Shown here piece by piece: positions 1,028 through 23,083 of a stretch of 23,809 nucleotides of DNA. Source of the stretch: a virus. Numbering within the stretch: the stretch's first letter is position 1; each line of letters begins with the position of its first letter. The position numbers and the translations under genes were made by a program. The stretch covers positions 1 to 23,809 of the IMG/VR virus record IMGVR_UViG_3300025309_000054. One strand, given 5' to 3'. The notes under the pieces are model-generated. The model worked only from the letters and a program-made list of their open reading frames with translations. It was not told where the DNA came from and searched no databases.

Positions 1028-1041
1028 ATTCACTTCTGAAT
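1028..1041. promoter_or_regulatory. B-box in leftward region
   Basis: ATTCACTTCTGAAT is the complement of ATTCAGAAGTGAAT, identical to the B-box inside the promoter spacer at 6716-6729. It lies between the 38-residue peptide gene and an A-box. It is the only clear B-box among the leftward genes. Confidence 0.7.
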
Positions 1042-1044
1042 ACC

Positions 1045-1161
1045 TTAAGCCACCAAAATCCTCACCACGTAAGGATGGCCGTAGTTCATGAACCAGTCCC
1101 AGGTCGTTTTGATCCTTCTTGTCTTGCCTGATTTAGTTCTGACTTCGCAGATGATCGTCAT
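1045..1161 (-). CDS. Hypothetical 38-residue basic peptide
   Basis: This short frame starts three bases after the stop of the upstream zinc-ribbon gene. AGGAGG lies nine bases before its ATG, inside the end of that gene. The product begins MTIICEVRTKSGKTRRIKTT and ends HPYVVRILVA. It is basic in the middle (KSGKTRRIK) and has beta-like hydrophobic ends, as in small phage nucleic-acid-associated peptides. Immediately downstream are a B-box (1028-1041) and an A-box (999-1020) before the next gene. Operon position and the ribosome binding site support it; the function is unknown. Confidence 0.6.
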   Translation of the reverse strand: MTIICEVRTKSGKTRRIKTTWDWFMNYGHPYVVRILVA

Positions 1162-1164
1162 GGC

Positions 1165-1581
1165 TTAGTCCTCCTTTTCTGGCGCCGTATTGCGCGCATC
1201 GCAGATTTCCCATTCATTCAAGCTTTCGTCCACCACATGGACCATCTCAGCGACAGCCACCCTTTTCCCGCAGGAGTCGCAGGCTCTCATCGTGGGGTCC
1301 TCTAAATACATCCCTTCCCCACAACAAGGGCAGCGCTCGCCGTTGTCTTCGATTTCCCCTCGCTTAGACTTTTGCTCACAATCGGGGCACTTTATTTCCT
1401 CGCCTCTAGCCTCCCGTTCGATTTCATGCTCGATGTACTCTTCTGCCAGGGTCTCGGAGCGAAATGCGGAAACGTGGCCATACCTACCAAGCAACTCGTT
1501 CCACCTCTCGACAGCTACCCAGCCAATCCCGGTTTGCCCTGCAGGCACAATTCTGTAAAATGGGATTTTGATGAATTTCAT
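1165..1581 (-). CDS. Zinc-ribbon protein, hypothetical
   Basis: This 138-residue protein has an N-terminal beta-rich part (residues 1-45) and a charged helix (about 44-63, ETLAEEYIEHEIEREARGEE). These are followed by two metal-binding pairs: C65-x2-C68 with C84-x-C86-C87, and C101-x2-C104 (CDSC). The arrangement suggests one or two zinc ribbons used for nucleic-acid or protein binding. AGGAGC lies seven bases upstream of the ATG. The A-box at 1599-1620 directly precedes the ribosome binding site. It is the first gene of a tight group with 1045-1161. I cannot name a family; a structural zinc-binding accessory protein is the safe reading. Confidence 0.8.
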   Translation of the reverse strand: MKFIKIPFYRIVPAGQTGIGWVAVERWNELLGRYGHVSAFRSETLAEEYIEHEIEREARGEEIKCPDCEQKSKRGEIEDNGERCPCCGEGMYLEDPTMRACDSCGKRVAVAEMVHVVDESLNEWEICDARNTAPEKED

Positions 1582-1598
1582 TTTGTGGCTCCTTTCGT

Positions 1599-1620
1599 AA
1601 AATGTGAAGTTTCACTTTTT
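1599..1620. promoter_or_regulatory. A-box 4
   Basis: AAAATGTGAAGTTTCACTTT lies in the junction of the genes at 1612-1908 and 1165-1581. It carries the stop codon of the first and directly precedes the ribosome binding site of the second. Confidence 0.8.
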
Positions 1621-1908
1621 ACCTTTCAGCCATTCCCTAATCCGAATCATCCCCTCGCTGCTAATCTGCCAGACCGGAACTCCACCATCCAGATAAAGGC
1701 CCCTCTCTTGGTCGCCTTCCATTAAAGTGCTTAGGTAGTACCTGGACACGAACTGACCGAAGTCCGTATGATCGTAACGGCAGTCATAGAATTCGACCGT
1801 CGGATCATCTTGGTCGTGCTCCAGGCAGAAATTGAGTCCGTATTTATCACCTTTTTGTACGATCCGGACGAGCCAGATCATTCCTTGGTCGTTGAATATT
1901 TTGATCAT
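1612..1908 (-). CDS. Hypothetical phage protein
   Basis: This 98-residue acidic protein begins MIKIFNDQGMIWLVRIVQKGDKYGLNF. The start is supported by GGAGGG eight bases upstream. Its core is beta-rich (IWLVRIV, YGLNFCLEHDQDDPTVEFYDCRYD) and is followed by a helical C-terminus ending IRIREWLKGKK. The terminal KK codons and the TGA stop are inside the A-box at 1599-1620, the same arrangement as at 280. Its first 62 bases overlap the upstream gene (1847-2044) in another frame. No family is recognised. Confidence 0.8.
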   Translation of the reverse strand: MIKIFNDQGMIWLVRIVQKGDKYGLNFCLEHDQDDPTVEFYDCRYDHTDFGQFVSRYYLSTLMEGDQERGLYLDGGVPVWQISSEGMIRIREWLKGKK

Positions 1909-2044
1909 TTTTGAGCCCTCCTACCGCACCATTTTCGATGAAGAAGTTGTTCGGGTACTTCAGCTCCAGGCAGTAGACGATGGTTTCCAGTGGGAATCCT
2001 CTGTTGACCAGTTGCTGCACGTAGGCTTGCCAAGGCAGTTTCAT
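1847..2044 (-). CDS. Hypothetical small protein overlapping the next gene
   Basis: This 65-residue frame starts MKLPWQAYVQQLVNRG with a near-perfect AAGGAGG six bases before the ATG, so initiation here is credible. The N-terminal 40 residues look like a small helical domain (VQQLVNRGFPLETIVYCLELKYP), reminiscent of an HTH-like fold by eye only. The last 20 codons overlap the next gene in a different frame and encode a low-complexity basic tail (RPRNDLARPDRTKR). That tail may be a by-product of an extended overlap. A palindromic repeat (2060-2117) lies just upstream. The function is unknown. Confidence 0.55.
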   Translation of the reverse strand: MKLPWQAYVQQLVNRGFPLETIVYCLELKYPNNFFIENGAVGGLKNDQNIQRPRNDLARPDRTKR

Positions 2045-2059
2045 TTTTAACCTCCTTCT

Positions 2060-2117
2060 GACCGCAGGTTTCCTCAGGTTGATTGCTTCGCAGGAGAACA
2101 TGAGGAAACCTGCGGTC
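2060..2117. repeat. Palindromic repeat element, copy 1
   Basis: Perfect 17-bp arms (GACCGCAGGTTTCCTCA at 2060-2076 and its complement at 2101-2117) enclose a 24-base loop that holds a mini-hairpin TGC-TTC-GCA. It sits between two leftward genes. A second copy with paired (compensatory) changes is at 6507-6570, and a rearranged copy is at 3087-3166. It may act as an RNA hairpin between genes or be a small non-autonomous mobile palindrome. Confidence 0.85.
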
Positions 2118-2128
2118 CAACTATCAAG

Positions 2129-2338
2129 CTACTCAGCCCACATTACCAGATCCGAGAAAAGACCCTCGGCCTCTGGGAGTTCCCACAGCCCGTCTTTGTT
2201 CCTGGAGGCTATTATCGTGTCTCCGTCAGGTCCGCTCCTCAGTTCTCCGTAGGTTATTTGCATGTAATCCGAGAAGGGGCCTAAGTCCTCACTCATGGTC
2301 GAGGTAGCAACATTTTCACCGCGTACATAGTAATTCAT
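2129..2338 (-). CDS. Hypothetical small acidic protein
   Basis: This 69-residue protein begins MNYYVRGENVATSTMSEDLG and ends EAEGLFSDLVMWAE. AAGGAG lies eight bases before the ATG. The sequence is acidic and mostly beta and loop, with a motif PDGDTIIASRNKDGLWELPE typical of small globular domains. No membrane segment or metal site is present. It is preceded by the A-box at 2386-2405 and followed by palindromic repeat copy 1. No family is recognised. Confidence 0.75.
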   Translation of the reverse strand: MNYYVRGENVATSTMSEDLGPFSDYMQITYGELRSGPDGDTIIASRNKDGLWELPEAEGLFSDLVMWAE

Positions 2339-2385
2339 TTTATTCTCCTTTTGGTTGATGGTGGTTGAACTCGGTCGATTCAAAT

Positions 2386-2405
2386 AAATGTGAAATTTCA
2401 CTTTT
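2386..2405. promoter_or_regulatory. A-box 5
   Basis: AAATGTGAAATTTCACTTTT lies between the 21-residue peptide gene and the gene starting at 2338. Its central 12 bp, GTGAAATTTCAC, is a perfect palindrome. Confidence 0.8.
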
Positions 2406-2469
2406 ACGAAAACCTCAGTAAGATAGCCGTCGCCCAAACAACTCCGAGCCAAACTATAGGTGCCATCAT
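2404..2469 (-). CDS. 21-residue hydrophobic membrane peptide
   Basis: This tiny frame encodes MMAPIVWLGVVWATAILLRF plus one residue, almost entirely a single membrane helix. Its ATG overlaps the TGA stop of the upstream gene in a classic ATGA junction. GGAGG lies 5-6 bases before the start. The TAA stop abuts the A-box at 2386-2405. The coupling, ribosome binding site and coherent helix support a real peptide, possibly of the toxic or host-modulating type. Short length keeps confidence modest. Confidence 0.5.
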   Translation of the reverse strand: MMAPIVWLGVVWATAILLRFS

Positions 2470-2762
2470 ATCGTCCCTCCGTGCTTTCGGATAATCTCCC
2501 GGACAACTTCCAGAGGGACGTATGAATAAACGGGAGAACCTTCGTAGGTATGATAAGGAGCCAAAAGTTCTTCTGGTTTGTTAGGGAACCCAACCTCGAC
2601 ATCCGAGTACAAAGCGAGCTTGAAGAAGTCCATTGTCTTAGGACAACAAGCGTGACGATCGCTTGCCTGGACACTCATCATAAACCCGTCTTTGCACACG
2701 ATCTGAGGGAATAAAACTCCCTGGGTCCTTGTGGGAAGTTTGATTTCAATTTTGGTGGACAT
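2466..2762 (-). CDS. Hypothetical first gene of leftward transcript
   Basis: This 98-residue protein begins MSTKIEIKLPTRTQGVLFPQ. AAGGAG lies eight bases upstream of the ATG. It is the first gene after a strong leftward promoter (2850-2878), about 80 bases downstream of the predicted start point. It is beta-rich with two adjacent cysteines (RHACCPK, about residues 38-42) and a helical end (LEVVREIIRKHGGTI). I do not recognise a family. Being promoter-proximal, it is likely expressed strongly when the leftward region is active. Its stop overlaps the start of the 21-residue peptide. Confidence 0.8.
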   Translation of the reverse strand: MSTKIEIKLPTRTQGVLFPQIVCKDGFMMSVQASDRHACCPKTMDFFKLALYSDVEVGFPNKPEELLAPYHTYEGSPVYSYVPLEVVREIIRKHGGTI

Positions 2763-2849
2763 TTGGATCTCCTTTGTAATTACGGGCTATTTCCGAAATG
2801 GGCGGATAGGGATGAGGGGAAAGAACTTTATAAAACCTTTGTCTTGGCG

Positions 2850-2878
2850 TTTATAGCGGGTTTGGATCTTTTCGTCAA
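2850..2878 (-). promoter_or_regulatory. Leftward sigma70-type promoter PL
   Basis: On the minus strand TTGACG (2873-2878) is followed after exactly 17 bases by TATAAA (2850-2855). The predicted start is near 2843. A degenerate B-box (2887-2900) begins eight bases upstream of the -35 and an A-box (2909-2930) lies just beyond it. This is the best promoter for the genes from 2762 leftward. Confidence 0.8.
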
Positions 2879-2886
2879 GCATTTTA

Positions 2887-2900
2887 ATTCACATGTGTAT
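2887..2900. promoter_or_regulatory. B-box (degenerate) upstream of PL
   Basis: ATTCACATGTGTAT matches the B-box consensus (read as ATTCACATCTGAAT) at 12 of 14 positions. It sits eight bases upstream of the PL -35, the geometry seen at other promoters in this window. Confidence 0.55.
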
Positions 2901-2908
2901 TTAAATTG

Positions 2909-2930
2909 GAATGTGAAACCTCACTTTTAT
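2909..2930. promoter_or_regulatory. A-box 6 upstream of PL
   Basis: GAATGTGAAACCTCACTTTT lies about 31 bp upstream of the PL -35, next to a degenerate B-box. It is the only A-box near a strong promoter. Confidence 0.7.
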
Positions 2931-3086
2931 GGTTTATTTGACGGGCGAATCAGGTAAACTACGCAAACTTTGCATAGCTGGTGTAAAACCTTATTAAATA
3001 CGCAGGTTTAGTCAGGTTTCTAGCGGAGCTTGGATATTGAGTTATGCCTGCGGTGGATTAGGGAGGATGCAGGATCAGTCAATTTT
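2931..3086. other. Non-coding stretch with decayed palindrome remnants
   Basis: No credible gene is seen in 2931-3191. Fragments such as TACGCAGGTTTAGTCAGGTTTC (in part) and GCCTGCGGTGG at 2999-3056 resemble broken pieces of the palindromic repeat. They suggest an older, decayed copy next to copy 2. Confidence 0.5.
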
Positions 3087-3166
3087 CCAGCGAAGCTTTA
3101 ATCATGAGGAAACCTGCGGTTGAATTGGGAGCTTCGCAGGTTTCCTCAATTTTAATGCGAAGCTGG
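3087..3166. repeat. Palindromic repeat element, rearranged copy 2
   Basis: Two imperfect 32-bp arms (3087-3118 and 3135-3166) contain a perfect 14-bp core (TGAGGAAACCTGCG at 3105-3118 and its complement at 3135-3148). Both outer ends read CCAGC inward. The arm order is inverted relative to copies 1 and 3, as if two half-elements joined tail to tail. Confidence 0.75.
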
Positions 3167-3191
3167 TTGGCTTGAGGCGGACTGCGAGGTA

Positions 3192-3374
3192 TTAAAGCAC
3201 TTCTTTCTCCGTGACGAAGTATTCGCGCTCGAAACCTTCGGGAGCGTTGATCTGCCATTCCTGGCCTTTGGCGTGCGCCTTTTCGCTGGAGGAAAAGAGG
3301 AAGGTTTCAACCCAGCGATCATCCGAGTAGGGCTCAAGGGTGTCTTCAATCTGCGCGAGTTCATAGACGATCAT
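3192..3374 (-). CDS. Hypothetical 60-residue protein
   Basis: The protein begins MIVYELAQIEDTLEPYSDDRW and ends EYFVTEKEVL. GGAGA lies eight bases before the ATG. The pattern (short N-terminal strand, then a segment FLFSSSEKAHAKGQEW, then a strand REYFVTEKEV) resembles small one-domain phage proteins that read as defence or host-response modifiers, but no family is recognised. It is isolated: palindromic repeats lie downstream and the 30-bp A-box palindrome (3479-3508) lies about 105 bp upstream. No convincing promoter is visible in front of it. Confidence 0.75.
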   Translation of the reverse strand: MIVYELAQIEDTLEPYSDDRWVETFLFSSSEKAHAKGQEWQINAPEGFEREYFVTEKEVL

Positions 3375-3478
3375 TTTAATTTCTCCTTTTTCTCGTTTCC
3401 CCAAGTTCCAACGCGTTTCCCTTCCTAGATCAAAAAGGATATACGCGCCGGTCCTGGGGGTTTTTAGGTAGTTCGTTT

Positions 3479-3508
3479 AGGCGCTATGTGAAATTTCACA
3501 TAGCGCCT
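3479..3508. promoter_or_regulatory. A-box 7 inside a perfect 30-bp palindrome
   Basis: AGGCGCTATGTGAAA is followed at once by its exact complement, with the axis between 3493 and 3494. The inner 16 bp is a fully symmetric A-box (TATGTGAAATTTCACATA); the outer arms add GGCGC. No T-run follows on either strand, so an operator is more likely than a terminator. It may be the highest-affinity A-site. Confidence 0.75.
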
Positions 3509-3599
3509 CTCAAGGTCGAGCTACGATCCGCGCCCTGGACCTGCAGGGCACCTCTTTTGCTCCATCTAAAGACTGCGAACATCCGTTTGCAGAGTTTAG

Positions 3600-3621
3600 A
3601 AAATGTGAAATATCACTTTTA
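3600..3621. promoter_or_regulatory. A-box 8
   Basis: AAAATGTGAAATATCACTTT lies in the non-coding cluster. It is one of four A-boxes between 3479 and 3750. Confidence 0.75.
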
Positions 3622-3650
3622 TTTGTTCCATTATGTAACACATCCTGGAT

Positions 3651-3672
3651 GAAATGTGAATTTTCATATTTT
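3651..3672. promoter_or_regulatory. A-box 9 (variant)
   Basis: GAAATGTGAATTTTCATATT has the TGTGA half intact and a changed right half (TCAT). It lies directly beside the strong hairpin at 3681-3716. Confidence 0.6.
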
Positions 3673-3680
3673 CTAAATAG

Positions 3681-3716
3681 AGCGGGACCGGCTCGATGCT
3701 TTGGGCCGGTCCCGCT
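3681..3716. terminator. Strong GC-rich hairpin flanked by A-boxes
   Basis: A perfect 12-bp stem (AGCGGGACCGGC, 3681-3692, with its complement at 3705-3716) encloses a 12-base loop. TTTGTTGCC follows on the plus strand and CTATTTAG on the minus strand, so it could terminate in either direction. A-boxes lie 9 and 11 bases from its two ends. Confidence 0.7.
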
Positions 3717-3726
3717 TTGTTGCCTC

Positions 3727-3750
3727 AAAAATGTGAACTTCACATTTTTA
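3727..3750. promoter_or_regulatory. A-box 10 (short-spacer, fully symmetric)
   Basis: AAAAATGTGAA, a single C, then TTCACATTTTT: both halves are perfect but the spacer is one base shorter than in the other A-boxes. Confidence 0.7.
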
Positions 3751-3944
3751 ATGAGCTTTTCTTTAACCAGTGAACCGATTGCCTCATGCCTCGCCTTTCT
3801 TATCAGCGACACAACTATTAGCAGGACGGTCAGTATCTGGCGTTTAAACGGCCCTTCTGTTTAGATGTATGGTAGCACCTCCCCCGCTTCTTATCTCTCG
3901 ACTATAAGGGGATATTCCGCCTTTCCAATCTGTTACCTTGTACC

Positions 3945-4260: not shown

Positions 4261-4267
4261 TTTGGCG

Positions 4268-4702: not shown

Positions 4703-4786
4703 GATATACCCCTTTGGCCTATGGCCGGTTGTGGTGCAAGGCACCGTGTATGCTTCCCAGGTGAGCCGTTCGTTCATGTTGATACA

Positions 4787-4815: not shown

Positions 4816-4894
4816 CACTATTTTTCACATTTATTTTAAAATAATTATTCTTGTGTAAAACAAGGTACTTAGGCTGTTAATTCATATTAGGTAG

Positions 4895-5026
4895 CTCCCC
4901 TCGGTCGATCCCTACGACCTCCCCTCGGTCGATCCCTACGACCTCCCCTCGGTCGATCCCTACGACCTCCCCTCGGTCGATCCCTACGACCTCCCCTCGG
5001 TCGATCCCTACGACCTCCCCTCGGTC
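4895..5026. repeat. 24-bp tandem repeat array (5.5 copies)
   Basis: Five exact copies of CTCCCCTCGGTCGATCCCTA plus CGAC (24 bp each) run from 4895 to 5014, and a 12-base partial copy ends at 5026. Each unit has one GATC and a small stem GGTCG/CGACC. The array lies in the gap between a leftward and a rightward promoter. Candidates are an iteron-type replication origin, a protein-binding array, or a plain expanded satellite; exact identity of all units also fits recent expansion. Confidence 0.9.
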
Positions 5027-5098
5027 ACTGGGGGCGGGGTGAAAGTTTTAATGAGAGCCAGGCTCCCTTACCCATTCACACACACGCTACGAGTTAAA

Positions 5099-5112
5099 AT
5101 TCAGATGTACAT
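5099..5112. promoter_or_regulatory. B-box (degenerate) upstream of rightward promoter
   Basis: ATTCAGATGTACAT matches the B-box consensus at 12 of 14 positions and ends nine bases before the -35 at 5122. Confidence 0.55.
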
Positions 5113-5121
5113 ACTTTTATC

Positions 5122-5150
5122 TTGACACGTAGCGAGTAAAGTGTTAAGGT
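5122..5150 (+). promoter_or_regulatory. Rightward promoter for 5181 gene
   Basis: TTGACA (5122-5127), 17 bases, TAAGGT (5145-5150). The -35 is perfect and the -10 is moderate. The predicted start is near 5157, giving a 24-base leader with AAGGAG before the ATG at 5181. Confidence 0.65.
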
Positions 5151-6261: not shown

Positions 6262-6506
6262 AGCACCTCTCCCCTATTGTACCTGGGGTAATGCTCCATA
6301 TATGATACGTTAAGCCTAAAAATATGACTTAATGATTCATATTTGATACGTTAAGAGGGCAAAAGTAATGTGGGATTTGAACCGGAGGTTGGATTTTGGG
6401 ATTGCTAAAATTTTGGGGATGTGGGTTCAGAAAGGATATACTTTGGGGAAATGCAAAAATGTCAACTAATGGTTTACAAATTTGTGGATTTTCAATTTGT
6501 TACCTA
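6262..6506. other. Non-coding gap with direct repeats
   Basis: TGATACGTTAAG occurs at 6303-6314 and again at 6344-6355 (41 bp apart), each preceded by an AT-rich CATAT tract. CCCC-10-GGGG (about 6271-6288) could form a weak hairpin. The one long open frame through here runs across the palindromic repeat and lacks a ribosome binding site. Confidence 0.55.
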
Positions 6507-6570
6507 GCGAACCACAGGTTTCCTCAGGTGGATCGCTTCGCGGGAGAACATGAGGAAACCTGTGGTTCGC
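6507..6570. repeat. Palindromic repeat element, copy 3
   Basis: Perfect 20-bp arms (6507-6526 and 6551-6570) enclose a 24-base loop with a mini-hairpin CGC-TTC-GCG. Compared with copy 1, a G:C pair in the stem became A:T on both arms, and the mini-hairpin pair T:A became C:G on both sides. Pairing is therefore conserved while sequence changed. Confidence 0.85.
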
Positions 6571-6685
6571 CTAAGCCGTGCTCTTGTGGTCCCAGTAACG
6601 TTAAGCAAAATTTACAAAACCTACCTGAAATGTAAATTTTATTTTACGATAGCCACTTTAAAATTCACGCAGCGAAGCGAAGTGC

Positions 6686-6699
6686 ATTCACATCTGAAT
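6686..6699. promoter_or_regulatory. B-box upstream of promoter
   Basis: ATTCACATCTGAAT is the exact complement of the B-box consensus. It ends seven bases before the -35 at 6707. Confidence 0.8.
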
Positions 6700-6706: not shown

Positions 6707-6735
6707 TTGACAAATATTCAGAAGTGAATTACGAT
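6707..6735 (+). promoter_or_regulatory. Rightward promoter with embedded B-box
   Basis: TTGACA (6707-6712), 17 bases, TACGAT (6730-6735). The spacer contains a complete B-box, ATTCAGAAGTGAAT (6716-6729). With the B-box at 6686 this promoter has two sites. A protein on the spacer site would block RNA polymerase, which fits repression. Confidence 0.85.
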
Positions 6736-6796: not shown

Positions 6797-6810
6797 ATTC
6801 AGATGTGAAT
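6797..6810. promoter_or_regulatory. B-box before ribosome binding site
   Basis: Exact ATTCAGATGTGAAT, directly followed by TAAGGAGA and the TTG start at 6824. No -35/-10 lies downstream, so it resembles a stoperator. Confidence 0.8.
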
Positions 6811-6823: not shown

Positions 6824-7084
6824 TTGACCGTTAAAGAGTTGATCGAGGAACTGAAGGACCTGCCGCAGGACGCTGAGATAATCATGCAGAAAGACACCGA
6901 GGGGAATGGCTACAGCCCTTTGTCTGTAGTTGATCCAGACGCGATTTACGTTCCGGACAGCACCTGGAGCGGAGATGTTTATTCGCTGGATTGGACAGCG
7001 GAGGATTGCTGTTTGCAGGAGGACGACTGGGAGGAAATGAAGGCCAACCATCCGAGGTGCGTAGTTCTGGCACCAATAAATTAA
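6824..7084 (+). CDS. Small conserved phage protein (TTG start)
   Basis: This 86-residue protein begins MTVKELIEELKDLPQDAEIIM, a beginning seen in many small phage proteins of unknown function (helix, then LPQDAEI strand). Translation starts at TTG with AAGGAGA eight bases upstream. The next gene has an almost identical leader (AAGGAGANCATTTTGAC), which supports both TTG starts. The C-terminal half is acidic with two adjacent cysteines (AEDCCLQEDDWEEM). It is the first gene after the promoter and attenuator-like leader at 6707-6789. The role is unknown. Confidence 0.8.
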   Translation: MTVKELIEELKDLPQDAEIIMQKDTEGNGYSPLSVVDPDAIYVPDSTWSGDVYSLDWTAEDCCLQEDDWEEMKANHPRCVVLAPIN

Positions 7085-9628: not shown

Positions 9629-9642
9629 ATTCAGATGTGAAT
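9629..9642. promoter_or_regulatory. B-box before ribosome binding site
   Basis: Exact ATTCAGATGTGAAT directly upstream of AAAGGAGA and the TTG start at 9657. No promoter elements are seen downstream of it, so it is another stoperator-like site, inside the long rightward operon. Confidence 0.8.
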
Positions 9643-9656: not shown

Positions 9657-10307
9657 TTGAGCAGAGGAGAAAAGCTCCGGGTCTTAGTTGCCTGTGAGTA
9701 CAGCGGAATTGTTCGCGATGCCTTTATCGCAAGAGGACACGACGCAATGAGTTGCGACCTGCTTCCAACTGAGAAGCTCGGTCCACATTACCAAGGAGAT
9801 GTTCGGGACATTCTCGATCAGGGCTGGGACCTACTGATCGCCCACCCAGACTGCACGTACATAACCAGCAGCGCGGAGTGGGCCTACGGCGATGGCCCTT
9901 ACCACCAGAAGGTTAAGCCCGAGACCTTAGTTGGTGCTGCTAGGAGGGCCGCGAGGGAGGATGCGCTTGATTTCGTCAGGCTGCTTCTCGCTGCGCCGAT
10001 CTGTATGAAGTGCATCGAGAACCCTGCACGGGGGGCCATTAATACGAGGGTCAGGAAGCCGGATCAAATCATCCAGCCTTGGCAGTTCGGTCACGACGCG
10101 AGCAAGGCGACTGGGCTCTGGCTTGAGGAGCTTCCTCACTTGTTGCCGACTTGTTTGGTGCTTCCTCGAATGGTAGGGGCGCTCCCGAGGTGGGGCAATC
10201 AGACGGACAGTGGGCAGAACAAGCTGACTCCGGGAAAAGACAGATGGAAAGAACGAGCCCGCACCTACCAAGGTTGGGCTGACGCTATGGCGGATCAATG
10301 GGGATAA
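9657..10307 (+). CDS. DNA cytosine methyltransferase-like protein (TTG start)
   Basis: I start this 216-residue protein at TTG (9657), with AAAGGAG eight bases upstream and an exact B-box before it. Upstream codons in the same frame would run through the B-box and ribosome binding site. A glycine/acid loop VLVACEYSGIVRDAF (about 9-23) looks like the SAM-binding motif I. HPDCTY (63-68) stands where motif IV would be, and ENPARG (121-126) resembles the ENV-type motif VI. This matches a phage family often annotated as DNA cytosine methyltransferase. Family members I recall read PPC where this one has PDC, so activity is uncertain. It probably modifies phage DNA or a nucleotide. Confidence 0.65.
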   Translation: MSRGEKLRVLVACEYSGIVRDAFIARGHDAMSCDLLPTEKLGPHYQGDVRDILDQGWDLLIAHPDCTYITSSAEWAYGDGPYHQKVKPETLVGAARRAAREDALDFVRLLLAAPICMKCIENPARGAINTRVRKPDQIIQPWQFGHDASKATGLWLEELPHLLPTCLVLPRMVGALPRWGNQTDSGQNKLTPGKDRWKERARTYQGWADAMADQWG

Positions 10308-12458: not shown

Positions 12459-13697
12459 TTATTCAAATTGCTCCCCAAATTTATCTGCGTCCTTCCTCTT
12501 TTGCTCCCTATCGACGAACGCATATTTCCTCGACATGTTGATGTCGCTGTGATCGAGGAAATCTGCGGTCTTCCTGATGTCCTGCGTAGCTTGGTAGTAG
12601 AAGGTCCCGGCTGAGTGCTTGGTGTCGTGGAAGCGCTTGTCTTCGAGCCCTGCTTCCTTTTTGACCTTCTGGAAAATGTTGTCCCAGTAGGATCTGGAGA
12701 TGGGCACTTCCGGAGTCTCACCGCAGAAGAGCCAAGGGCTTTCCTGCTCCTTCTTGGTTAGCCCCTCTAGGTAGGAATCCAGCAGGCTCCTGAGCTTTGG
12801 GATCATGTCCAGATAATGTGTGTAGTCGCCCTGCTTCCTTTTGCTTGCTGGGATGGATACGAGATTTTCCTGGAGGTTCAGGTATTCCTTTTTTAATGAG
12901 CATATGGTTTTCCTCCTGAGCCCACCGAACGCGCCCATCCCTATAATGAGTGGAGCCCTCTTGTCTACCAGCTCCGCTGCTTCCAGAAGCCTATTCAATT
13001 CACCCACCGTGTAAAATTTATCCTCCCTGGAATCGTTCTCGGGCCAAGCAGGTACCACCTGAAGCTGATTGTATTCGAGGTACCGCGTGTTGTCTGGAGC
13101 TACGATCTTGGATTTCACGAAGCAGTTGATCATGTTGATGAGGGTGGTCCTGGCCCGGTTCACAGTCGAGTTCGAGTGACCTAGATCATCCCGGCAGTAG
13201 ACCATGTATGCTTGGAGGTGCTGCGGGAGTAGATCCTGAATGAAAACTGGGAGCCGGTCTGATAACTGGCGTGGCAAGGGCTTGTCGGTCTTCCAGGAGA
13301 ACTCTCGGAAGAAGGGAGTCAGGTTTCGGTCTAGGCGTTGGAGGTAGAAGGCTCGTGTGTCGGCGTTGGAGAGCCCTTCGAGGTGGGTTTTGTAAAGCTC
13401 TGCGGCTCGATCCCAGGTCAATTTTTCCCGCTTCTGGTTCAGCTTGAAGCGGTCGTCCACGATCTGACCCAGGACCTGGTTAAGCCGATCCTCGGCTTGT
13501 TTCTTGTGGATGCTGATCTGCTCCGCGATCTGCTTCCCATCGAAGGAGTAGGAGATGCTCCAGAATTTATCAGCCTCGTTTGTGGTGCTTCCACACTTTT
13601 TGCACGGAGGCATCTTCTTGGGAGGATCGGTGAAGCGCTTCCTGGCCCCACACTCGTAGCATCGGACCACCTTGAAAATCGAACCCTTTTCTCGCAT
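12459..13697 (-). CDS. int: Tyrosine recombinase (phage integrase)
   Basis: This 412-residue protein has an N-terminal zinc ribbon (C13-x2-C16 and C32-x2-C35), an arm/core-binding part (about 90-215) and a C-terminal catalytic domain. Visible residues are R261 (GGLRRKTI), the beta-hairpin lysine region SKRKQG (285-290), H357 (FHDTKHSAG), H383 (FLDHSD) and nucleophile Y392 (SRKYAF). The second catalytic arginine of the usual HxxR is lysine here (K360). It would integrate and, with a directionality factor, excise the phage. It has its own promoter with a B-box in the spacer (13718-13746), so it is probably repressed by the same regulator as the 6707 promoter. AAGGAGG lies upstream of the ATG. 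The attP candidate is 330 bp upstream. Confidence 0.92.
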   Translation of the reverse strand: MREKGSIFKVVRCYECGARKRFTDPPKKMPPCKKCGSTTNEADKFWSISYSFDGKQIAEQISIHKKQAEDRLNQVLGQIVDDRFKLNQKREKLTWDRAAELYKTHLEGLSNADTRAFYLQRLDRNLTPFFREFSWKTDKPLPRQLSDRLPVFIQDLLPQHLQAYMVYCRDDLGHSNSTVNRARTTLINMINCFVKSKIVAPDNTRYLEYNQLQVVPAWPENDSREDKFYTVGELNRLLEAAELVDKRAPLIIGMGAFGGLRRKTICSLKKEYLNLQENLVSIPASKRKQGDYTHYLDMIPKLRSLLDSYLEGLTKKEQESPWLFCGETPEVPISRSYWDNIFQKVKKEAGLEDKRFHDTKHSAGTFYYQATQDIRKTADFLDHSDINMSRKYAFVDREQKRKDADKFGEQFE

Positions 13698-13717: not shown

Positions 13718-13746
13718 AATATAATTCAGACGTGAATGGAAGTCAA
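13718..13746 (-). promoter_or_regulatory. Integrase promoter with embedded B-box
   Basis: On the minus strand TTGACT (13741-13746), 17 bases, TATATT (13718-13723). The spacer is occupied by the B-box ATTCAGACGTGAAT (13724-13737), exactly as in the promoter at 6707. Confidence 0.85.
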
Positions 13747-13853: not shown

Positions 13854-13867
13854 ATTCAGACGTGATT
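13854..13867. promoter_or_regulatory. B-box variant in attP region
   Basis: ATTCAGACGTGATT has one mismatch from the integrase-promoter B-box. No promoter is obvious next to it. Confidence 0.5.
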
Positions 13868-14018: not shown

Positions 14019-14032
14019 ATTCACTTGTGAGT
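14019..14032. promoter_or_regulatory. B-box-like site across the tRNA breakpoint
   Basis: ATTCACTTGTGAGT fits the B-box palindrome (TTCAC-N2-GTGA) with one outer mismatch. It straddles the point where tRNA similarity stops (14029). Confidence 0.4.
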
Positions 14033-14067
14033 CAGAGTCCGTTGCCTTACCGCTTGGCGACACCCCA
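14029..14067 (-). tRNA. 5' half of tRNA-Gln(CUG), candidate attP core
   Basis: Read on the minus strand, the 39 bases from 14067 to 14029 are the 5' half of a tRNA-Gln. They comprise the acceptor strand TGGGGTG, D arm GCC-AAGCGGTAA-GGC, anticodon 5' strand ACGGA, loop CTCTGAC (anticodon CTG) and the first two bases (TC) of the 3' anticodon strand. After that the sequence diverges (ACAAGTGA instead of an expected CGT), and no T arm or 3' acceptor half is present downstream. Identity ending in the anticodon stem beside an integrase gene fits a phage attachment site in a host tRNA-Gln gene. It is not a functional tRNA as it stands. Confidence 0.75.
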
Positions 14068-14781: not shown

Positions 14782-14955
14782 CTACTCCTGACCTTCGTAA
14801 GTAACAAGTTGGAAGCATCTTTTCGGATTCCTAATACAGGTAACGTCGGGAGTCTCTGCAACGCACTCAGATTGCGACCTACAGAAGTAGCAGCAGGTCT
14901 GATTCTCCTTGAAAGGGTCGTAGGGACAACATGTGGATTTGCATCTGGCGATCAT
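14782..14955 (-). CDS. Cys-rich small protein
   Basis: The 57-residue protein has nine cysteines (5, 9, 10, 21, 22, 25, 31, 40, 47). GGAGGTGGGAG lies just before the ATG, which overlaps the TGA of the upstream gene (ATGA). There is no signal peptide, so metal binding is more likely than disulfides. The pattern C-x3-CC-x10-CC-x2-C is not one I recognise. It is co-transcribed with its neighbours. Confidence 0.65.
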   Translation of the reverse strand: MIARCKSTCCPYDPFKENQTCCYFCRSQSECVAETPDVTCIRNPKRCFQLVTYEGQE

Positions 14956-15134
14956 CTCCCACCTCCGTACAAATCCTTAGCCCACCCAGAGCCCTTCAAG
15001 ACAAATGAAGGCGAAGCTACGGTTCGGTGCATCGGATGACCACATTCACAAAGCTGAATTCCCGGTGAGTTGAAGGCCTCCCGGACCTCCCTTGATTTTT
15101 CACATTTGCTGCATTTGTACTCGTACAGAGGCAT
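14952..15134 (-). CDS. FmdB-type zinc-ribbon protein
   Basis: This 60-residue protein begins MPLYEYKCSKCEKSREVREA with C8-x2-C11 and C29-x-C31, followed by HRTVASPSFVLKGSGWAKDLY. The MPxYEYxCxxC start and the SFVLKGSGW-x3-LY end are characteristic of the FmdB/Zn-ribbon_8 family (PF09723), whose members are 60-110 residues and of poorly defined regulatory role. AGGAG lies nine bases before the ATG and a B-box (15150-15163) sits directly in front of it. It is the first gene after the leftward promoter at 15218-15246. Confidence 0.8.
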   Translation of the reverse strand: MPLYEYKCSKCEKSREVREAFNSPGIQLCECGHPMHRTVASPSFVLKGSGWAKDLYGGGR

Positions 15135-15149: not shown

Positions 15150-15163
15150 ATTCGGATATGAAT
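15150..15163. promoter_or_regulatory. B-box before leftward ribosome binding site
   Basis: ATTCGGATATGAAT, two mismatches from consensus, lies in the leader of the leftward transcript, directly before AGGAG of the FmdB-type gene. Confidence 0.65.
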
Positions 15164-15253: not shown

Positions 15254-15267
15254 ATTCATATCTGAAT
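15254..15267. promoter_or_regulatory. Shared B-box between divergent promoters
   Basis: ATTCATATCTGAAT lies seven bases upstream of the leftward -35 and ten bases upstream of the rightward -35, about 50 bp from both predicted start points. Confidence 0.8.
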
Positions 15268-15332: not shown

Positions 15333-15346
15333 ATTCAGATGTGAAT
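15333..15346. promoter_or_regulatory. B-box in leader of structural transcript
   Basis: Exact ATTCAGATGTGAAT, between the leader hairpin and the ribosome binding site of the first gene. It overlaps an ATG at 15345 that I do not take as the start. Confidence 0.8.
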
Positions 15347-15356: not shown

Positions 15357-15746
15357 ATGGGAGATTGGATTGAGATCAAACCGGAGCAAGTAAGGAAGGA
15401 CAACAGCAACCTGTGGCGCATGGAGGGGGAGGGCACCTACATCAATGAGGAGTTAAAGAAATTGAAATTCAAAAAGGTTGAGCCTGAGCACATTGACCGG
15501 CTGAGAAACTGGGTGGCAGTCACTGGCTATGGAATTGCCCATCCTTACGAGGACTTGGATGCTCAATTGGATCTGCAGACTTTTATCGCGAGGCTAACCG
15601 AAGTAGATGCTGAAATTTTTGAACTGTTTCTGGAGAACTACTCGGTCAAGGAAATAGCTGCTGAGGTAAACCGAAATACCAAAACTGTGTACCGCAGGTT
15701 GAGCGGAATTATCGACCAGTACAAGACCTACTACCTGGAGGAATAA
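15357..15746 (+). CDS. HTH protein with sigma region 4-like end
   Basis: I prefer the start at 15357 (MGDWIEIKPEQVRKDNSNLW), 129 residues. GGGAGA lies five bases upstream of it, whereas the in-frame ATG at 15345 lies in the B-box and has no ribosome binding site. The C-terminal part (about 78-125, LTEVDAEIFELFLENYSVKE then IAAEVNRNTKTVYRRLSGII) is a helix-turn-helix of sigma-70 region 4 type. As first gene of the structural transcript, it could be a late-gene regulator or a DNA-binding packaging factor. It does not have sigma region 2, so it is not a full sigma factor. Its TAA overlaps the next ATG. Confidence 0.65.
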   Translation: MGDWIEIKPEQVRKDNSNLWRMEGEGTYINEELKKLKFKKVEPEHIDRLRNWVAVTGYGIAHPYEDLDAQLDLQTFIARLTEVDAEIFELFLENYSVKEIAAEVNRNTKTVYRRLSGIIDQYKTYYLEE

Positions 15747-19213: not shown

Positions 19214-20593
19214 ATGGGATGGTTCTTCAAAGAGAAAGCTGCATCGCAGCCTAGCCTAGCTGTATATTCAACCCCTCCTCGCCCGCCGATTGATTATTCA
19301 GGCAAGGAAAACCCCGCAGATAAAATCACGTACACCGGCATCGGCCAAACGAAGTACGCTTCAGGACTTCCGCCTTCCATCTTCGACAACCCGATTACGG
19401 CAGTCAGGTCGTACCCTGTTGTCTACTCCGTCATCTCTGCGATCTCCGATGCTATCGCCGGGTTGAACGTCAAGGTCTACCAGCTTAAAGGGGGTCAACG
19501 AACCGAGGCGATGGACCACCCCTTCTACAAGGTATTCTCGAACCCCAATCCCTATCAAGGATCGTTCGAGTTCCTCGAAGAACTTGAGCAGGGCTTGGAT
19601 ACTTGCGGGAACGTCTACATCCTGAAGGAGCCTGGGCCAAACGGGGTCGAGCTTTACATCCTCAATCCGAAGTATGTCGCGATCCTCCCCGACCCTACCA
19701 TCAAGGTCAAAGGCTACCGCTACTACATCAACGGGCAGTCGATGGATTTCCCGCCTGAGTCTGTAATCCACATCAAGTACAACGACGTGGACGATCCGTA
19801 CTACGGGATGCCTCCTCTGGCGACCGCAGTAGACGTGATCACTTTTGAGAAAAACCGCATCGCGTTTGCCAATCAGTACTTTATCAATGGCGCGATTCCA
19901 GTCGGGGTCCTTGAGACCGAGCAGGTTCTCGGTGAGACTCTCCTGAAGAAGCTCAGGAAAGAATGGAGCGGGATTCACCAAGGAGTATCGAATGCGCATA
20001 AGGTAGGGATTCTTCAGGGCGGGTTGAAGTACAAGCCGATCACCTCCCCCATCAAGGATTTAGATTTCCCTGGGCTCAAGAAGATGTCCCGAGAAGATAT
20101 TCTGGCAATCTTTAAAGTGCCTGAGTCCATTCTAGGTAGCCAGGAAGGTACCGGCGCCAAAGAAGGCAAGGACGCTGTGGTCGCCTTCTGGCGCCAGTGC
20201 ATTATACCTAGATTGAGAAGGATCGAAAGCGGCCTGAATCGCGGGCTCCAGATTGAGATGTTCGGACAGGGCACGTTCGTCTTTGAATTTAATTTGAAAG
20301 ATGTCGTAGCTTTGCAGGATGACAGGGAATCATTAAGCAAATACCTTCAGACTCTGGTTGGTAGCTCCATCATGACCGCCAACGAAGCTCGTGCAGTCAT
20401 CGGACTCCCGTTAAGCAAAGACCCCACCGCAGATGTCCTCATGGTCAACAACAGCCAATTCGGGAACGCCCTGATGCCGGTTGGAGACGTAGGAAATCAA
20501 GGCGCAGGCTCCAACGACAAGAAGCCTGGAGCAAAACCTGGAGGGACGAAACCGGTGAACGGAGAGAAGCCAAAGGCTAAACCTACGGCTTAA
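19214..20593 (+). CDS. Portal protein (HK97 family)
   Basis: This 459-residue protein starts with AAAGGAC eight bases upstream. The family signature is seen in NPITAVRSYPVVYSVISAIS (55-74), HPFYKVFSNPNPYQ (about 101-114), GNVYILKEPG, and SVIHIKYNDVDDPYYGMPPL (with FEKN following). MSREDILAIFKVPESILG lies near 290-307. It forms the dodecameric ring at the capsid vertex that binds the terminase and tail connector. The C-terminal 45 residues are low-complexity (GSNDKKPGAKPGGTKPV), rich in G, K and P. A B-box and a possible promoter follow the gene. Confidence 0.95.
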   Translation: MGWFFKEKAASQPSLAVYSTPPRPPIDYSGKENPADKITYTGIGQTKYASGLPPSIFDNPITAVRSYPVVYSVISAISDAIAGLNVKVYQLKGGQRTEAMDHPFYKVFSNPNPYQGSFEFLEELEQGLDTCGNVYILKEPGPNGVELYILNPKYVAILPDPTIKVKGYRYYINGQSMDFPPESVIHIKYNDVDDPYYGMPPLATAVDVITFEKNRIAFANQYFINGAIPVGVLETEQVLGETLLKKLRKEWSGIHQGVSNAHKVGILQGGLKYKPITSPIKDLDFPGLKKMSREDILAIFKVPESILGSQEGTGAKEGKDAVVAFWRQCIIPRLRRIESGLNRGLQIEMFGQGTFVFEFNLKDVVALQDDRESLSKYLQTLVGSSIMTANEARAVIGLPLSKDPTADVLMVNNSQFGNALMPVGDVGNQGAGSNDKKPGAKPGGTKPVNGEKPKAKPTA

Positions 20594-20596
20594 AGT

Positions 20597-20610
20597 ATTC
20601 ACGTGTGAAT
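20597..20610. promoter_or_regulatory. B-box between portal and protease genes
   Basis: ATTCACGTGTGAAT has fully symmetric halves (ATTCAC/GTGAAT). It is six bases upstream of a possible -35. Confidence 0.7.
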
Positions 20611-20616
20611 AAAAAT

Positions 20617-20644
20617 TTAACATTGTTGAGAATTATCGTATGAA
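20617..20644 (+). promoter_or_regulatory. Possible capsid-operon promoter
   Basis: TTAACA (20617-20622), 16 bases, TATGAA (20639-20644). The -10 is weak, but the spacing from the upstream B-box matches the other promoters. It would give separate expression of protease, scaffold and capsid. Confidence 0.45.
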
Positions 20645-20681
20645 ATCGACCCAATACCCATAATGAAGCATAAGGAGAATT

Positions 20682-21680
20682 ATGGAAAATAAAACGTTCA
20701 ACCTCTTGACCAAATTTGAGGTCAAAGCATCGACATCCCCTCCTCACGATCCCAATTCCGTAGACACTGGAGATTCCGAAGTAATCAAAATTGCTGGCTA
20801 CGCAAACTTTGCAGGGGCTGTAGAAGAAGGTGCCCCGATGGTAGACCTCTCCGGCGACGTGATCGTCCCCTCAGGGATAGACGTGTCTGTCTGGAAGAAA
20901 AACCCTCAGATCCTCTGGCAGCACGATAGGCACTGCACTATTGGTCGAGGTATCTCCGTAGTCAAGAAGAAGGACGGTCTTTACATCGAAGCCGAAATCC
21001 ATAAGGGCGCGATGGAGGACGAAGACTTCTACCGGATCAAGTCTGGGTTGATCTCCTACTTCTCTGTTGGCTTTCGCACGATGGCGGGTGAATTCAAGAA
21101 GGTTGGGGATCGCCAGGTTTACTTCATCACTAAGTGCCTCCTTTTGGAGGTATCCGCCGTTGGAATCCCCTGTTGCTCCGACGCATCCTTCCAAATCATC
21201 AAATCCCTCCCCGACGATGGAGGTTTTTACGCAGGTGAACTAACAGGAAAAATTTGTCCCACCATTGAAAATGAAATTCAAGAACAAAAAGGAGTAGCAA
21301 TGAAATTCGTTTCTACACTCAGAGACACCCTGCCCGAGGCAGAGGTCAAACGCCTGGAGGCCCTCGGGATGGGCGCAAAGCTTGAGGAGGAAATCGAGGT
21401 CGATGCCAAAGCATACATCGGTGAGATTGTCTCCAGAGCAACCGCCGAATTCACCGATGCAATGAAGGCCCTTCAGGAAGAAATAGCCAAGCTTCAGGAC
21501 CAACTCAAAGAGGTTCCTGTGGAGGAACCTGCGGAAGCTACTGAAGAGGAAAAAGAAGCTCCCGCTGAAGAGACCGAGGAAAAAGAGGCACCTGCTGAAG
21601 ATGAACTCAGCGAGGAAGACGTGACTACCATCAAAGGACTGCTTGAGCAGCTCGCAGAAATCAAAAAGGCGCTCGACTAA
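20682..21680 (+). CDS. Prohead protease with fused scaffold domain
   Basis: This 332-residue protein has an HK97-type serine protease domain in residues 1-175: H81 (LWQHDRH), S128 (SYFSVGF) and the acidic residue E156 in LLLEVSAVGIPCC. After a linker it continues with a scaffold-like part (207-332): helix, coiled coil (AMKALQEEIAKLQDQLKE), a very acidic Glu/Pro/Ala repeat (about 283-311) and a final helix (GLLEQLAEIKKALD). The protease matures the prohead and cuts the scaffold. AAGGAG lies seven bases before the ATG. An internal start at 21300 probably makes the scaffold part alone. Confidence 0.92.
   Translation: MENKTFNLLTKFEVKASTSPPHDPNSVDTGDSEVIKIAGYANFAGAVEEGAPMVDLSGDVIVPSGIDVSVWKKNPQILWQHDRHCTIGRGISVVKKKDGLYIEAEIHKGAMEDEDFYRIKSGLISYFSVGFRTMAGEFKKVGDRQVYFITKCLLLEVSAVGIPCCSDASFQIIKSLPDDGGFYAGELTGKICPTIENEIQEQKGVAMKFVSTLRDTLPEAEVKRLEALGMGAKLEEEIEVDAKAYIGEIVSRATAEFTDAMKALQEEIAKLQDQLKEVPVEEPAEATEEEKEAPAEETEEKEAPAEDELSEEDVTTIKGLLEQLAEIKKALD
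21300..21680 (+). CDS. Internal-start scaffold protein (nested in protease gene)
   Basis: Codon 207 of the protease gene is ATG (21300), in the same frame, with AAGGAG (21289-21294) five bases upstream. This is as good a ribosome binding site as any in the region. It gives a 126-residue acidic coiled-coil protein starting MKFVSTLRDTLPEAEVKRLE. Lambda C/Nu3 is the classic example of a protease gene with a nested in-frame scaffold. Here the capsid protein also has a delta-like N-terminal coiled coil, so two scaffold elements may coexist. Confidence 0.75.
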   Translation: MKFVSTLRDTLPEAEVKRLEALGMGAKLEEEIEVDAKAYIGEIVSRATAEFTDAMKALQEEIAKLQDQLKEVPVEEPAEATEEEKEAPAEETEEKEAPAEDELSEEDVTTIKGLLEQLAEIKKALD

Positions 21681-21711
21681 GAGCACAAAACCACACAGGA
21701 GATTCAAACAC

Positions 21712-23064
21712 ATGAGTAAAGAAATTCTTGAGCAGCTCCAGGGCGAAGTCGCCAACATCACCAAATCTCTGGCTGATAAAGTCAACGCAGGCCAGGCCGC
21801 AGAAGTCAAAGAGCTTAGCGATAAGCTGACCGCTCTCCAGGCTCAGGTGTCCGAGAAGCGTCACCAGTTCGCTGTTGACCAGCACGTAGTCAAGGAGAAG
21901 GACGTAGCGGTAGAGCGCAAGATGGATGAGCTTCTGATCGCGTCCACCCTTATGCGTACCAAGTCGGGCCACCTCACCGATGCCTACGGTAGGCTTGTCG
22001 CCACCCCGGAGTATCGTGATGCGCTTAAAGCTGCTGGCTTCACCGCAGATCCCATGACCACCGGGGCTGCTACCAACGGCGCTGAGTTTATTCCCACCGC
22101 CTTCTCCAGCACCCTGCAGGAAGAGATCTTCCTGAAGCTGGAAATTGCCGACTTGTTCGGGCGCATGAATATGCCTTCTCCGAACTACGTGCTGCCGTTC
22201 TCGCCGGGCCGTACCATCGCCCAGGGTGTTGCGGAGTCTGGTGAGCCCACCAAGGTCAAAGCGAAAACCGCAAAGATCACCTTCGACGCACAGAAGATCA
22301 TGAGCAACATTGAGTTCACCGACGAGTTCGAGCAGGACTCCATCGTCGCCGTGCTTCCGTTCATCCGCAAGCAGCTCATCGACGGCTTCGCGCTCGCGCA
22401 GGAAACCATGTCCCTGAACGGCGATATCAACGGCGATCTGCTTGCCAACGGTGCTTACGGCGCCACTGACTGCCGTAAGCTGGTCGCAGGTATCCGTGCC
22501 GACGCCACCAACGCAGCCGCAGGTAACGCCGCTGTTTCGTTCGCCTCTGGCGGGTTCACAGCGGATAACCTGCGTTCCCTCCGTACCGCGATGGGCAAGT
22601 ATGGCAAAACCCCGTCTGACCTCGCAATCATAGTGAGCATGGCTGACTACAACAAGATGCTGGCGACCGCCTGGAACAGCGGGGCATTCCAGATGCTCTA
22701 CTCCTACGGCGCGGGTGCTACCCTCCTGAAAGGTGAAATGGGCCGCTTCGACAACATCCCGATCATTGTCTCCGAACTGGTCCCGCTGGCTAACGCAGCT
22801 TCCACCGCTGACCTGTCGGATGCACTCGGGGGCCTGAACGCTTCCGGTCAGCACGACTACACCACCGCAGGCAACAACACCAAGACCACCTGCGTGCTGG
22901 TCAACAAAAACGCCTACATGTGGGGTGATCGCAAAGAGTTCAGCCTGGAGACCTTCCGCAACCCGTACAACCAGACCCTGAGCCTGATCGGTTCGCAGCG
23001 CCTCGACTTCCAGAAAGTCCTGTCCGCTACCTCCCCGACCTGCGCGGTAGGCATCAACTACTAA
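21712..23064 (+). CDS. Major capsid protein (HK97 fold)
   Basis: The start is placed at 21712 (MSKEILEQLQGEVANITKSL) because CAGGAG lies upstream and the longer frame has none; this gives 450 residues. The first 85-95 residues are a coiled coil with the character of the HK97 delta domain, which serves as built-in scaffold and is removed by the protease. The body follows: FIPTAFSSTLQEEIFLKLEI, then EFEQDSIVAVLPFIRKQLID (the spine-helix region), and QTLSLIGSQRLDFQKVL near the end. Codon use is visibly more regular and GC-rich than in accessory genes, as expected for a very highly expressed gene. A terminator with an adjacent B-box follows. Confidence 0.93.
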   Translation: MSKEILEQLQGEVANITKSLADKVNAGQAAEVKELSDKLTALQAQVSEKRHQFAVDQHVVKEKDVAVERKMDELLIASTLMRTKSGHLTDAYGRLVATPEYRDALKAAGFTADPMTTGAATNGAEFIPTAFSSTLQEEIFLKLEIADLFGRMNMPSPNYVLPFSPGRTIAQGVAESGEPTKVKAKTAKITFDAQKIMSNIEFTDEFEQDSIVAVLPFIRKQLIDGFALAQETMSLNGDINGDLLANGAYGATDCRKLVAGIRADATNAAAGNAAVSFASGGFTADNLRSLRTAMGKYGKTPSDLAIIVSMADYNKMLATAWNSGAFQMLYSYGAGATLLKGEMGRFDNIPIIVSELVPLANAASTADLSDALGGLNASGQHDYTTAGNNTKTTCVLVNKNAYMWGDRKEFSLETFRNPYNQTLSLIGSQRLDFQKVLSATSPTCAVGINY

Positions 23065-23069
23065 AATCT

Positions 23070-23083
23070 ATTCAGATGTGAAT
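23070..23083. promoter_or_regulatory. B-box directly before capsid terminator
   Basis: Exact ATTCAGATGTGAAT abutting the hairpin at 23084. It is not associated with a promoter, so bound protein could act as a roadblock that aids termination. Confidence 0.8.

Follow-up and report, generated by a model that had tools for sequence, protein, structure and literature searches.

A near-palindromic element dispersed over the genome of an uncultured phage, probably the operator of its lysogeny repressor

Background

Operators of a single repressor that are dispersed over a phage genome are familiar from the C1 operators of coliphage P1 and from the conserved inverted repeats of phiC31, systems whose sequences and protein families are different from those considered here. 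In this work, we analyse B-box, a 14-bp element of an uncultured phage, in the IMG/VR record IMGVR_UViG_3300025309_000054 (23,809 nt, the complete record, denoted below as the window) and in longer contigs of the same phage group. The array has a near-palindromic site, copies that stand in countable and exact registers to promoters and start codons, and a candidate repressor pair that can be named. Our preferred reading, to which we give a probability of roughly 0.65, is that the lysogeny (immunity) repressor of a temperate phage uses B-box as its operator and that the copies of this element make up an operator/stoperator array.

As far as the excerpted literature goes, the best-described phage-wide repressor arrays are those of mycobacteriophages and SP-beta. 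In the excerpts on cluster A (L5-type) mycobacteriophages, 20-30 short repressor sites are found genome-wide, few of them in promoters and most in short intergenic spaces; these stoperators are asymmetric 13-mers oriented with transcription, and the repressor is a monomer having a helix-turn-helix and a second domain (PMC6550527, PMC9283540). SP-beta has a conserved 15-bp element, SPBRE, located in promoter regions and bound by the master repressor MrpR (PMC10516654, in part). For the temperate T7-like phage LUZ100, a small MarR-like regulator has been proposed for lysogeny control (PMC10134795, in part).

Results

Copy number and sequence of B-box

An earlier note on this DNA had listed five exact copies of ATTCAGATGTGAAT and ten variants. 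All five were found in the window (6686 on the minus strand, 6797, 9629, 15333 and 23070), and the ten variants were all present with 1-3 mismatches each. Allowing at most 3 mismatches, we obtained 28 strand-wise matches to the 14-mer compared to 2.23 expected and a maximum of 7 in 100 shuffles. B-box is a quasi-palindrome, nearly its own reverse complement, and the 28 strand-wise matches therefore correspond to about 15 places. For a strict B-box we required ATTCANNNNTGAAT, tolerating no more than one mismatch in the arms, and agreement with a consensus form at 12 or more of the 14 bases. The window has 14 strict sites, whereas 20 Markov sequences matched in dinucleotide content had 0.10 on average; the site at 5099 is a fifteenth, weaker one beyond the strict set.

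The window is included at 99.9% identity in a contig of 82,561 bp, denoted as G001. A search with the terminase large subunit gave nine loci encoding a relative (73-100% identity). The contig G005 (102,669 bp) is about 75-90% identical to G001 in alignable parts, and nothing of G001 aligned to its stretch at about 26-50 kb; G002, G003 and G004 are shorter relatives. From the alignment of one end of G005 to the window at about 1.2 kb and of the other at about 4.9 kb, we infer that G005 is a circularly permuted and nearly complete genome. Taking the size from this relative, the genome of the presumably temperate phage may be about 100 kb. Over 20 Markov runs each, strict sites numbered 34 in G001 compared to a mean of 0.00, and 41 in G005 compared to a mean of 0.55 and a maximum of 4. 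They occupy nearly all 10-kb bins of both contigs.

Across these 75 strict sites, the two arms, ATTCA and TGAAT, hardly vary. In the centre, CATC/GATG (29/75) and CTTC/GAAG (16/75) predominate, so one half is usually ATTCAC and the other ATTCAG; perfectly palindromic B-boxes are rarer. Asymmetric intergenic sites have one orientation to transcription in 29 cases and the other in 15 (p 0.05, with orthologs counted twice). A slight orientation bias is thus possible, and the strict orientation of cluster A is absent.

Conservation in relatives

In the alignment of G001 to G005, 33 of the 34 G001 sites were alignable and 30 of these 33 were kept. Site identity was 94.2% (435/462), compared to 81.0% (1336/1650) in the 25-bp flanks. 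Eleven G005 sites have no counterpart in G001. Four of them (32858, 39256, 44004 and 45328) are located in the G005 stretch unalignable to G001, so only the other seven bear on gain or loss. The earlier note had proposed a dedicated phage regulator that would govern early, integration and structural genes jointly. The dispersal of the copies and their retention in place, both of which are directly observed, support this proposal.

Position relative to genes

Gene calls were made by a simple coding-score script and cover 77% of the window; some genes were missed, such as the FmdB-like gene at 14952-15134. Of the 75 sites in G001 and G005, 63 are outside gene calls, although only 13% (G001) and 10% (G005) of all 14-mers are located there. 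The 14 strict sites of the window are all outside gene calls (p about 1e-9). Among the 63 intergenic sites, 20 end 8-20 nt 5' of a start codon, compared to 7-8% of intergenic positions. An arrangement commonly seen by eye consists of a stop codon, B-box, a Shine-Dalgarno sequence and the next start codon, and some B-boxes come after a gene end and are followed by a G+C-rich hairpin (e.g. 23070). The hairpin after 23070 is absent from the computed list of terminators.

The 75 sites can be divided into 22 at promoters, 23 ending no more than 30 nt 5' of a start codon with no promoter call, 18 elsewhere between genes, and 12 within gene calls, 3 of which stand 10-15 nt before the next gene. The claim that B-box is tied to promoters thus held for the 22 sites and not for the majority in the larger contigs, which have no recognisable promoter.

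Promoter registers

We paired sites with promoters having a near-consensus -35 and used shifted promoters as control. The test gave 32 site-promoter pairs compared to 6.4 for shifted promoters (standard deviation 2.7, maximum 17). B-box centres were located at -48.5 to -51.5 in 12 of the pairs, at exactly -19.5 in 7, at +/-2.5 in 4, and elsewhere in the remaining 9. A second run with slightly different rules, in which weaker sites were admitted, gave 21 pairs for G001, namely 8 upstream, 4 in the -35/-10 spacer, 3 near the start and 6 unclassed. The eight upstream pairs come from seven sites, one of which serves two divergent promoters, and in these eight promoters B-box is centred 49.5-51.5 bp before the predicted start. 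Both G001 promoters having an upstream as well as a spacer B-box have the two 30 bp apart. Orthologous promoters in the other contigs repeat the same positions, including the divergent pair around 15254, which recurs in G005, G003, G004 and G002; these are not independent evidence. A few weak promoter matches in relatives place sites at -55.5 or -40.5.

The geometry previously described, with sites 47-51 bp before predicted starts, was seen at 2887 (minus strand), 5099 (plus), 6686 (plus) and 15254 on both strands (-49.5 to -51.5, with a TTGAC -35). It does not apply to 6716, which is located in the -35/-10 spacer, and 13724 is also within the spacer and not 5' of the -35. Instead of a single fixed geometry, we found three discrete positions (about -49.5 to -51.5, -19.5, and near the start). 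The weaker promoter suggested at 20617 was not recovered, as we obtained no site-promoter pair for 20597. The integrase promoter has its B-box at the spacer position, which suggests repression, rather than the activation that a site at -49 alone might suggest.

We infer repression, and a roadblock action between genes, in the following form. A dimeric repressor would recognise the near-palindrome ATTCAnnnnTGAAT and occupy about 40 places. Bound at a promoter, it would cover the start, the spacer or the DNA just 5' of the -35 and so block initiation. Between genes, before ribosome-binding sites and after gene ends, the bound repressor would probably halt elongating RNA polymerase in a stoperator-like manner. 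The integrase, the early leftward and rightward operons and the structural operon could thereby be silenced together. The repressor would be one of the MarR-like paralogs described below, weakly autoregulated through degenerate upstream B-boxes.

Candidate repressor

Two adjacent genes encoding MarR-like paralogs of 118 amino acids are located outside the window, on the minus strand of G001 (34878-35234 and 35327-35683), and are kept in G005 at 88% and 65%, respectively. Both match phrog_9665 'transcriptional regulator' (3e-20 and 4e-8), and paralog 1 passes Pfam MarR_2 (4e-9, 36.9 bits compared to a cut-off of 27). Paralog 2 has 30% identity to paralog 1 over 89 amino acids. The AlphaFold model of paralog 1, built from 4 sequences, has a predicted local distance difference test (pLDDT) value of 78 and a predicted template modelling score (pTM) of 0.68. 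It matches MepR-DNA, MarR and SlyA in Foldseek (4e-5 to 1.5e-4), several of the matches being DNA complexes, and a sequence search of paralog 1 against solved structures gave no match. According to the Pfam match and this model, paralog 1 has a MarR-type winged-helix domain. Before paralog 1 there are two degenerate B-boxes 18 bp apart, kept in G001 and G005, and a B-box core is found within a promoter identified by eye before paralog 2 (TTGACA, 17 nt, TATTCT). Degenerate B-boxes upstream of both paralogs are as expected for weak autoregulation.

Relatives of the pair in viral contigs were found in four contigs, all from the same phage group. Bacterial MarR-like relatives numbered ten, in 3 of 141 Geobacterales genomes and 7 of 395 genomes in the phylum. 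A related dyad was present at two of the ten, both from Geobacterales (TTGCACATATGCAA; TTGCACATGTGCAA on both sides of the gene), and these dyads hold the CACATGTG core of B-box or differ from it by one base. No dispersed array was seen in the stretches around G037, G056, G130, G409 and G483. Four T7-like phage records have five homologous MarR-like open reading frames (hidden Markov model, 1e-11 to 1e-18), which adjoin an annotated integrase in 3 of the 4. The best candidate for the B-box binder would be one of the two paralogs, and the pairing of protein to site is circumstantial.

Discussion

Points against the preferred reading and rival explanations

Several observations weigh against a MarR-like repressor acting at B-box by simple occlusion. 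Nine of the 32 site-promoter pairs match none of the registers, and 12 of the 75 strict sites fall within gene calls. In G001, the eight upstream positions vary by no more than 2 bp, a precision for which a pure steric block has no need. As to the protein, the MarR score of paralog 2 is below the cut-off of 24.6 bits (17.1 in G001 and 12.1 in G005), and superpositions of the paralog 1 model have TM-scores of only 0.5-0.6 with root-mean-square deviations mostly of 7-12. No related dyad was present in the 500 bp to either side of eight of the ten bacterial relatives, and in the part of each T7-like record that was covered, the dyads near the MarR genes differ and none is shared with B-box. The MarR pair does not adjoin the integrase in this phage. 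There is also a possible alternative binder, a ribbon-helix-helix protein of 52 amino acids (G001 37461-37619, 94% in G005).

Given how tight the upstream register is, the protein might contact RNA polymerase directly, which makes a dual regulator the main rival. Such a protein, like lambda CI, would activate at -49.5 and repress at the spacer, the start and the gene gaps, and would serve as a lysis-lysogeny or early-late switch. The 2-bp agreement mentioned above fits this explanation, as do 5 of the 8 upstream-class G001 promoters, where neither the spacer nor the start has a further B-box. However, the -35s of the upstream-class promoters match the consensus at 5-6 of 6 bases (to which the search rule contributed), so an activator should be unneeded. 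The same T-rich stretch and -35 are found in promoters with a spacer or start site only, and the register is not absolute, considering the weaker matches at other positions. We regard the dual regulator as unlikely. A B-box standing alone in the spacer, as for the integrase, or at the start can hardly be an activator site, which favours repression; a reading as activator only was ranked lower.

That the phage exploits a host regulator binding to B-box is very improbable. A narrower B-box pattern matched 33 of 141 genomes of Geobacterales, one possible host group, at no more than 2 places per genome, compared to about 40 in the phage, and B-box is not a large Geobacterales regulon. A single B-box-like dyad does recur at one locus in one Geobacterales group (L198-L201, L203-L207, L209 and L211; around position 1501, in L209 at 70), and some of these dyads are perfect ATTCACATGTGAAT. 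The dyad adjoins a gene resembling a branched-chain amino-acid binding protein, called at 9 loci and recognised at two by similar flanks, and a host regulator may use it. A scan of viral contigs for ATTGCACATGTGCAAT gave one contig only, with the site within an open frame, which we took as chance.

An RNA element, i.e. a hairpin in the mRNA before the ribosome-binding site for translation control or processing, is hardly credible. Many copies are directly 5' of a Shine-Dalgarno sequence and a hairpin with a 5-bp stem and a 4-nt loop can be drawn, but this hairpin is weak (-0.5 to -1.5 kcal/mol), the loop orientation is mixed (29 compared to 15), and the divergent-promoter site and the other -49.5 sites do not become part of the transcripts of those promoters. 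A DNA-maintenance element (partition, replication, packaging or chromosome organisation), for which gene proximity would be secondary, could account for the spread over nearly all 10-kb bins but would not be expected to have exact registers to -35/-10 elements and start codons, and we consider it just as implausible.

A second dyad family in the leftward arm

The window has 8 copies of another dyad, the AAATGTGAnATTTCACTTTT-like A-box (268, 679, 1000, 1600, 2386, 2909, 3601 and 3652; span 268-3671). There are 14 copies in G001 and 8 in G005, compared to 0 to 1 per Markov run (n=10), and all are confined to one leftward arm. In G001 and G005, 15 of 22 A-boxes end 13-22 nt before a start codon. 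A- and B-box have the half-site TGTGA in common in opposite arrangement. Where the two meet, the distance between centres is 25 bp at two loci, at which the order of the boxes is reversed, and 7 bp at a third; at 2887 the A-box centre is 25 bp further upstream of the B-box. The A-box may be a related, putative second operator family. More tentatively, there could be a two-protein, two-operator immunity code, for which we see some chance but which is doubtful at present. The half-site TGTGA/TCACA would be common to both MarR-like paralogs, which would differ in the arrangement that they recognise: one would read it as in the genome-wide B-box (TTCAC-AT-GTGAA), the other in the opposite arrangement, as in the early-arm A-box (AAATGTGAAATTTCACTTT), with A- and B-box 25 bp apart where they meet. 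If true, dyad symmetry and MarR proteins would here be the basis of a stoperator system, and one early operon would come under a second layer.

A perfect 30-bp dyad at 3479-3508 and a 23-bp dyad with a single central base at 3727-3749 are longer than the A-box and have cores like it; they cluster with the A-boxes at 3601 and 3652 in about 0.9 kb without gene calls. The A-box arm of G005 also encodes a protein with a long alanine-tyrosine-arginine repeat tail (101445-102125). Other repeats were seen in this part of the window. At 4895-5030, between diverging genes, a 24-nt unit (CTCCCCTCGGTCGATCCCTACGAC) is present in about 5.5 copies arranged head to tail. Another element, of 63 nt and with CCGCAGGTTTCCTCA-like inverted ends, has two copies (87% identity) and a third, partial one (2061-2123, 3103-3120 and 6511-6573). 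Two 26-nt copies, 88% alike and with starts 41 bp apart, are located at 6289-6355, upstream of the rightward promoter region.

Temperate life, host and other features

A stretch of 39 nt (14029-14067, minus strand), 0.3 kb from the integrase, has exact copies in at least 120 bacterial genome stretches from unrelated groups including Clostridia and Geobacter. It appears to be the 5' part of a glutamine transfer RNA (tRNA-Gln) gene and is the probable attP core. The tyrosine integrase, together with this likely tRNA-type attP, suggests that the phage is temperate. As the 39-nt match spreads over unrelated groups, no host was assigned by attP. A search by the terminase large subunit found no prophage relatives in GTDB contigs, nor in 11 genomes or 141 Geobacterales genomes, the latter two scans having no positive control. 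The features of the window are collected in Table 1.

Table 1 B-boxes and integrase gene of the window. Column Strand is empty where no strand applies. Placement denotes location relative to genes and promoters; centres are relative to the predicted start.
Feature	Position	Strand	Placement
B-box	1028-1041	-	5' of leftward gene; centre 25 bp from centre of A-box 1000-1019; same spacing at corresponding G005, G003 and G004 loci
B-box	2887-2900	-	5' of leftward -35 (TTGACG 2878-2873; -10 TATAAA 2855-2850); centre -50.5
Weaker B-box	5099-5112	+	5' of -35 TTGACA 5122-5127; centre -51.5; same register in G001, G005, G003, G004 and G002
B-box	6686-6699	+	5' of rightward -35 (TTGACA 6707-6712; TACGAT 6730-6735); centre -49.5
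B-box	6716-6729	+	Spacer of 6707 rightward promoter; centre -19.5; 30 bp from 6686 site
B-box	6797-6810	+	Directly before ribosome-binding site of gene called at 6824; stoperator-like; not conserved in G005
B-box	9629-9642	+	Intergenic; 14 nt before DNA methyltransferase start called at 9657
Tyrosine integrase gene	12459-13697	-	
B-box	13724-13737	-	Integrase promoter spacer (TTGACT 13746-13741, 17 nt, TATATT 13723-13718); centre -19.5; same register in G001, G005, G003, G004 and G002
B-box variant	13854-13867		Between integrase promoter and attP-like sequence
B-box variant	14019-14032		4-bp overlap with end of attP-like tRNA sequence
B-box variant	15150-15163	-	15 nt before start of FmdB-like zinc-ribbon gene (14952-15134)
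B-box	15254-15267		Common to divergent promoters (+: TTGACA from 15278, TACAAT to 15305; -: TTGACA from 15246, TAACAT to 15218); centres -51.5 and -49.5
B-box	15333-15346	+	Directly before ribosome-binding site of sigma-70-region-4-like gene called at 15357
B-box	20597-20610	+	Between portal and protease genes; promoter not convincing
B-box	23070-23083	+	5 bp past major capsid gene stop, then G+C-rich hairpin (-22.7 kcal/mol)

The first gene of the structural operon (15357-15746) resembles sigma-70 region 4 (Pfam 1e-8), and G005 encodes a second distant relative of its product at 3153-3662 (33% over 76 amino acids). The product is a possible late-gene regulator.

Comparison with known systems

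No such array with a MarR protein was found in the open-licence literature, in searches that were not aimed at this phage group. B-box is a sequence signature that might identify immunity groups of uncultured phages, and the question of how a symmetric site could stop both starting and elongating RNA polymerase becomes directly testable.

Compared to the excerpts on cluster A, the array is similar in having at least 20-30 sites that are mostly intergenic (34 and 41 copies, 63/75 outside genes), counted here as sites and not as bound sites. A temperate phage and a site upstream of the repressor gene, here a candidate one, are also in common with the L5 type. It differs from cluster A in that B-box is near-palindromic, has mixed orientation (29 compared to 15) and about 40 copies, is found in three promoter registers, and has a MarR-like protein as candidate. 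As in the SP-beta excerpt, one conserved element is found across a large temperate phage and in promoter regions. The SP-beta sites are fewer, with peaks of chromatin affinity precipitation and sequencing (ChAP-seq) at ten named promoters, MrpR has a tyrosine-recombinase fold, and the excerpted part of the paper describes no stoperator-like placement (PMC10516654). With LUZ100-type phages, the phage has a homologous small MarR-like regulator in common; the LUZ100 gene, according to the part of the source used, is beside the integrase, the proposed site of action of its product is the phage RNA polymerase promoter, and no shared dyad was seen. Dispersed phage repressor sites are therefore known, and what is new here is a near-palindrome without strict orientation, three registers, a possible MarR-type pair and an arm-specific second family.

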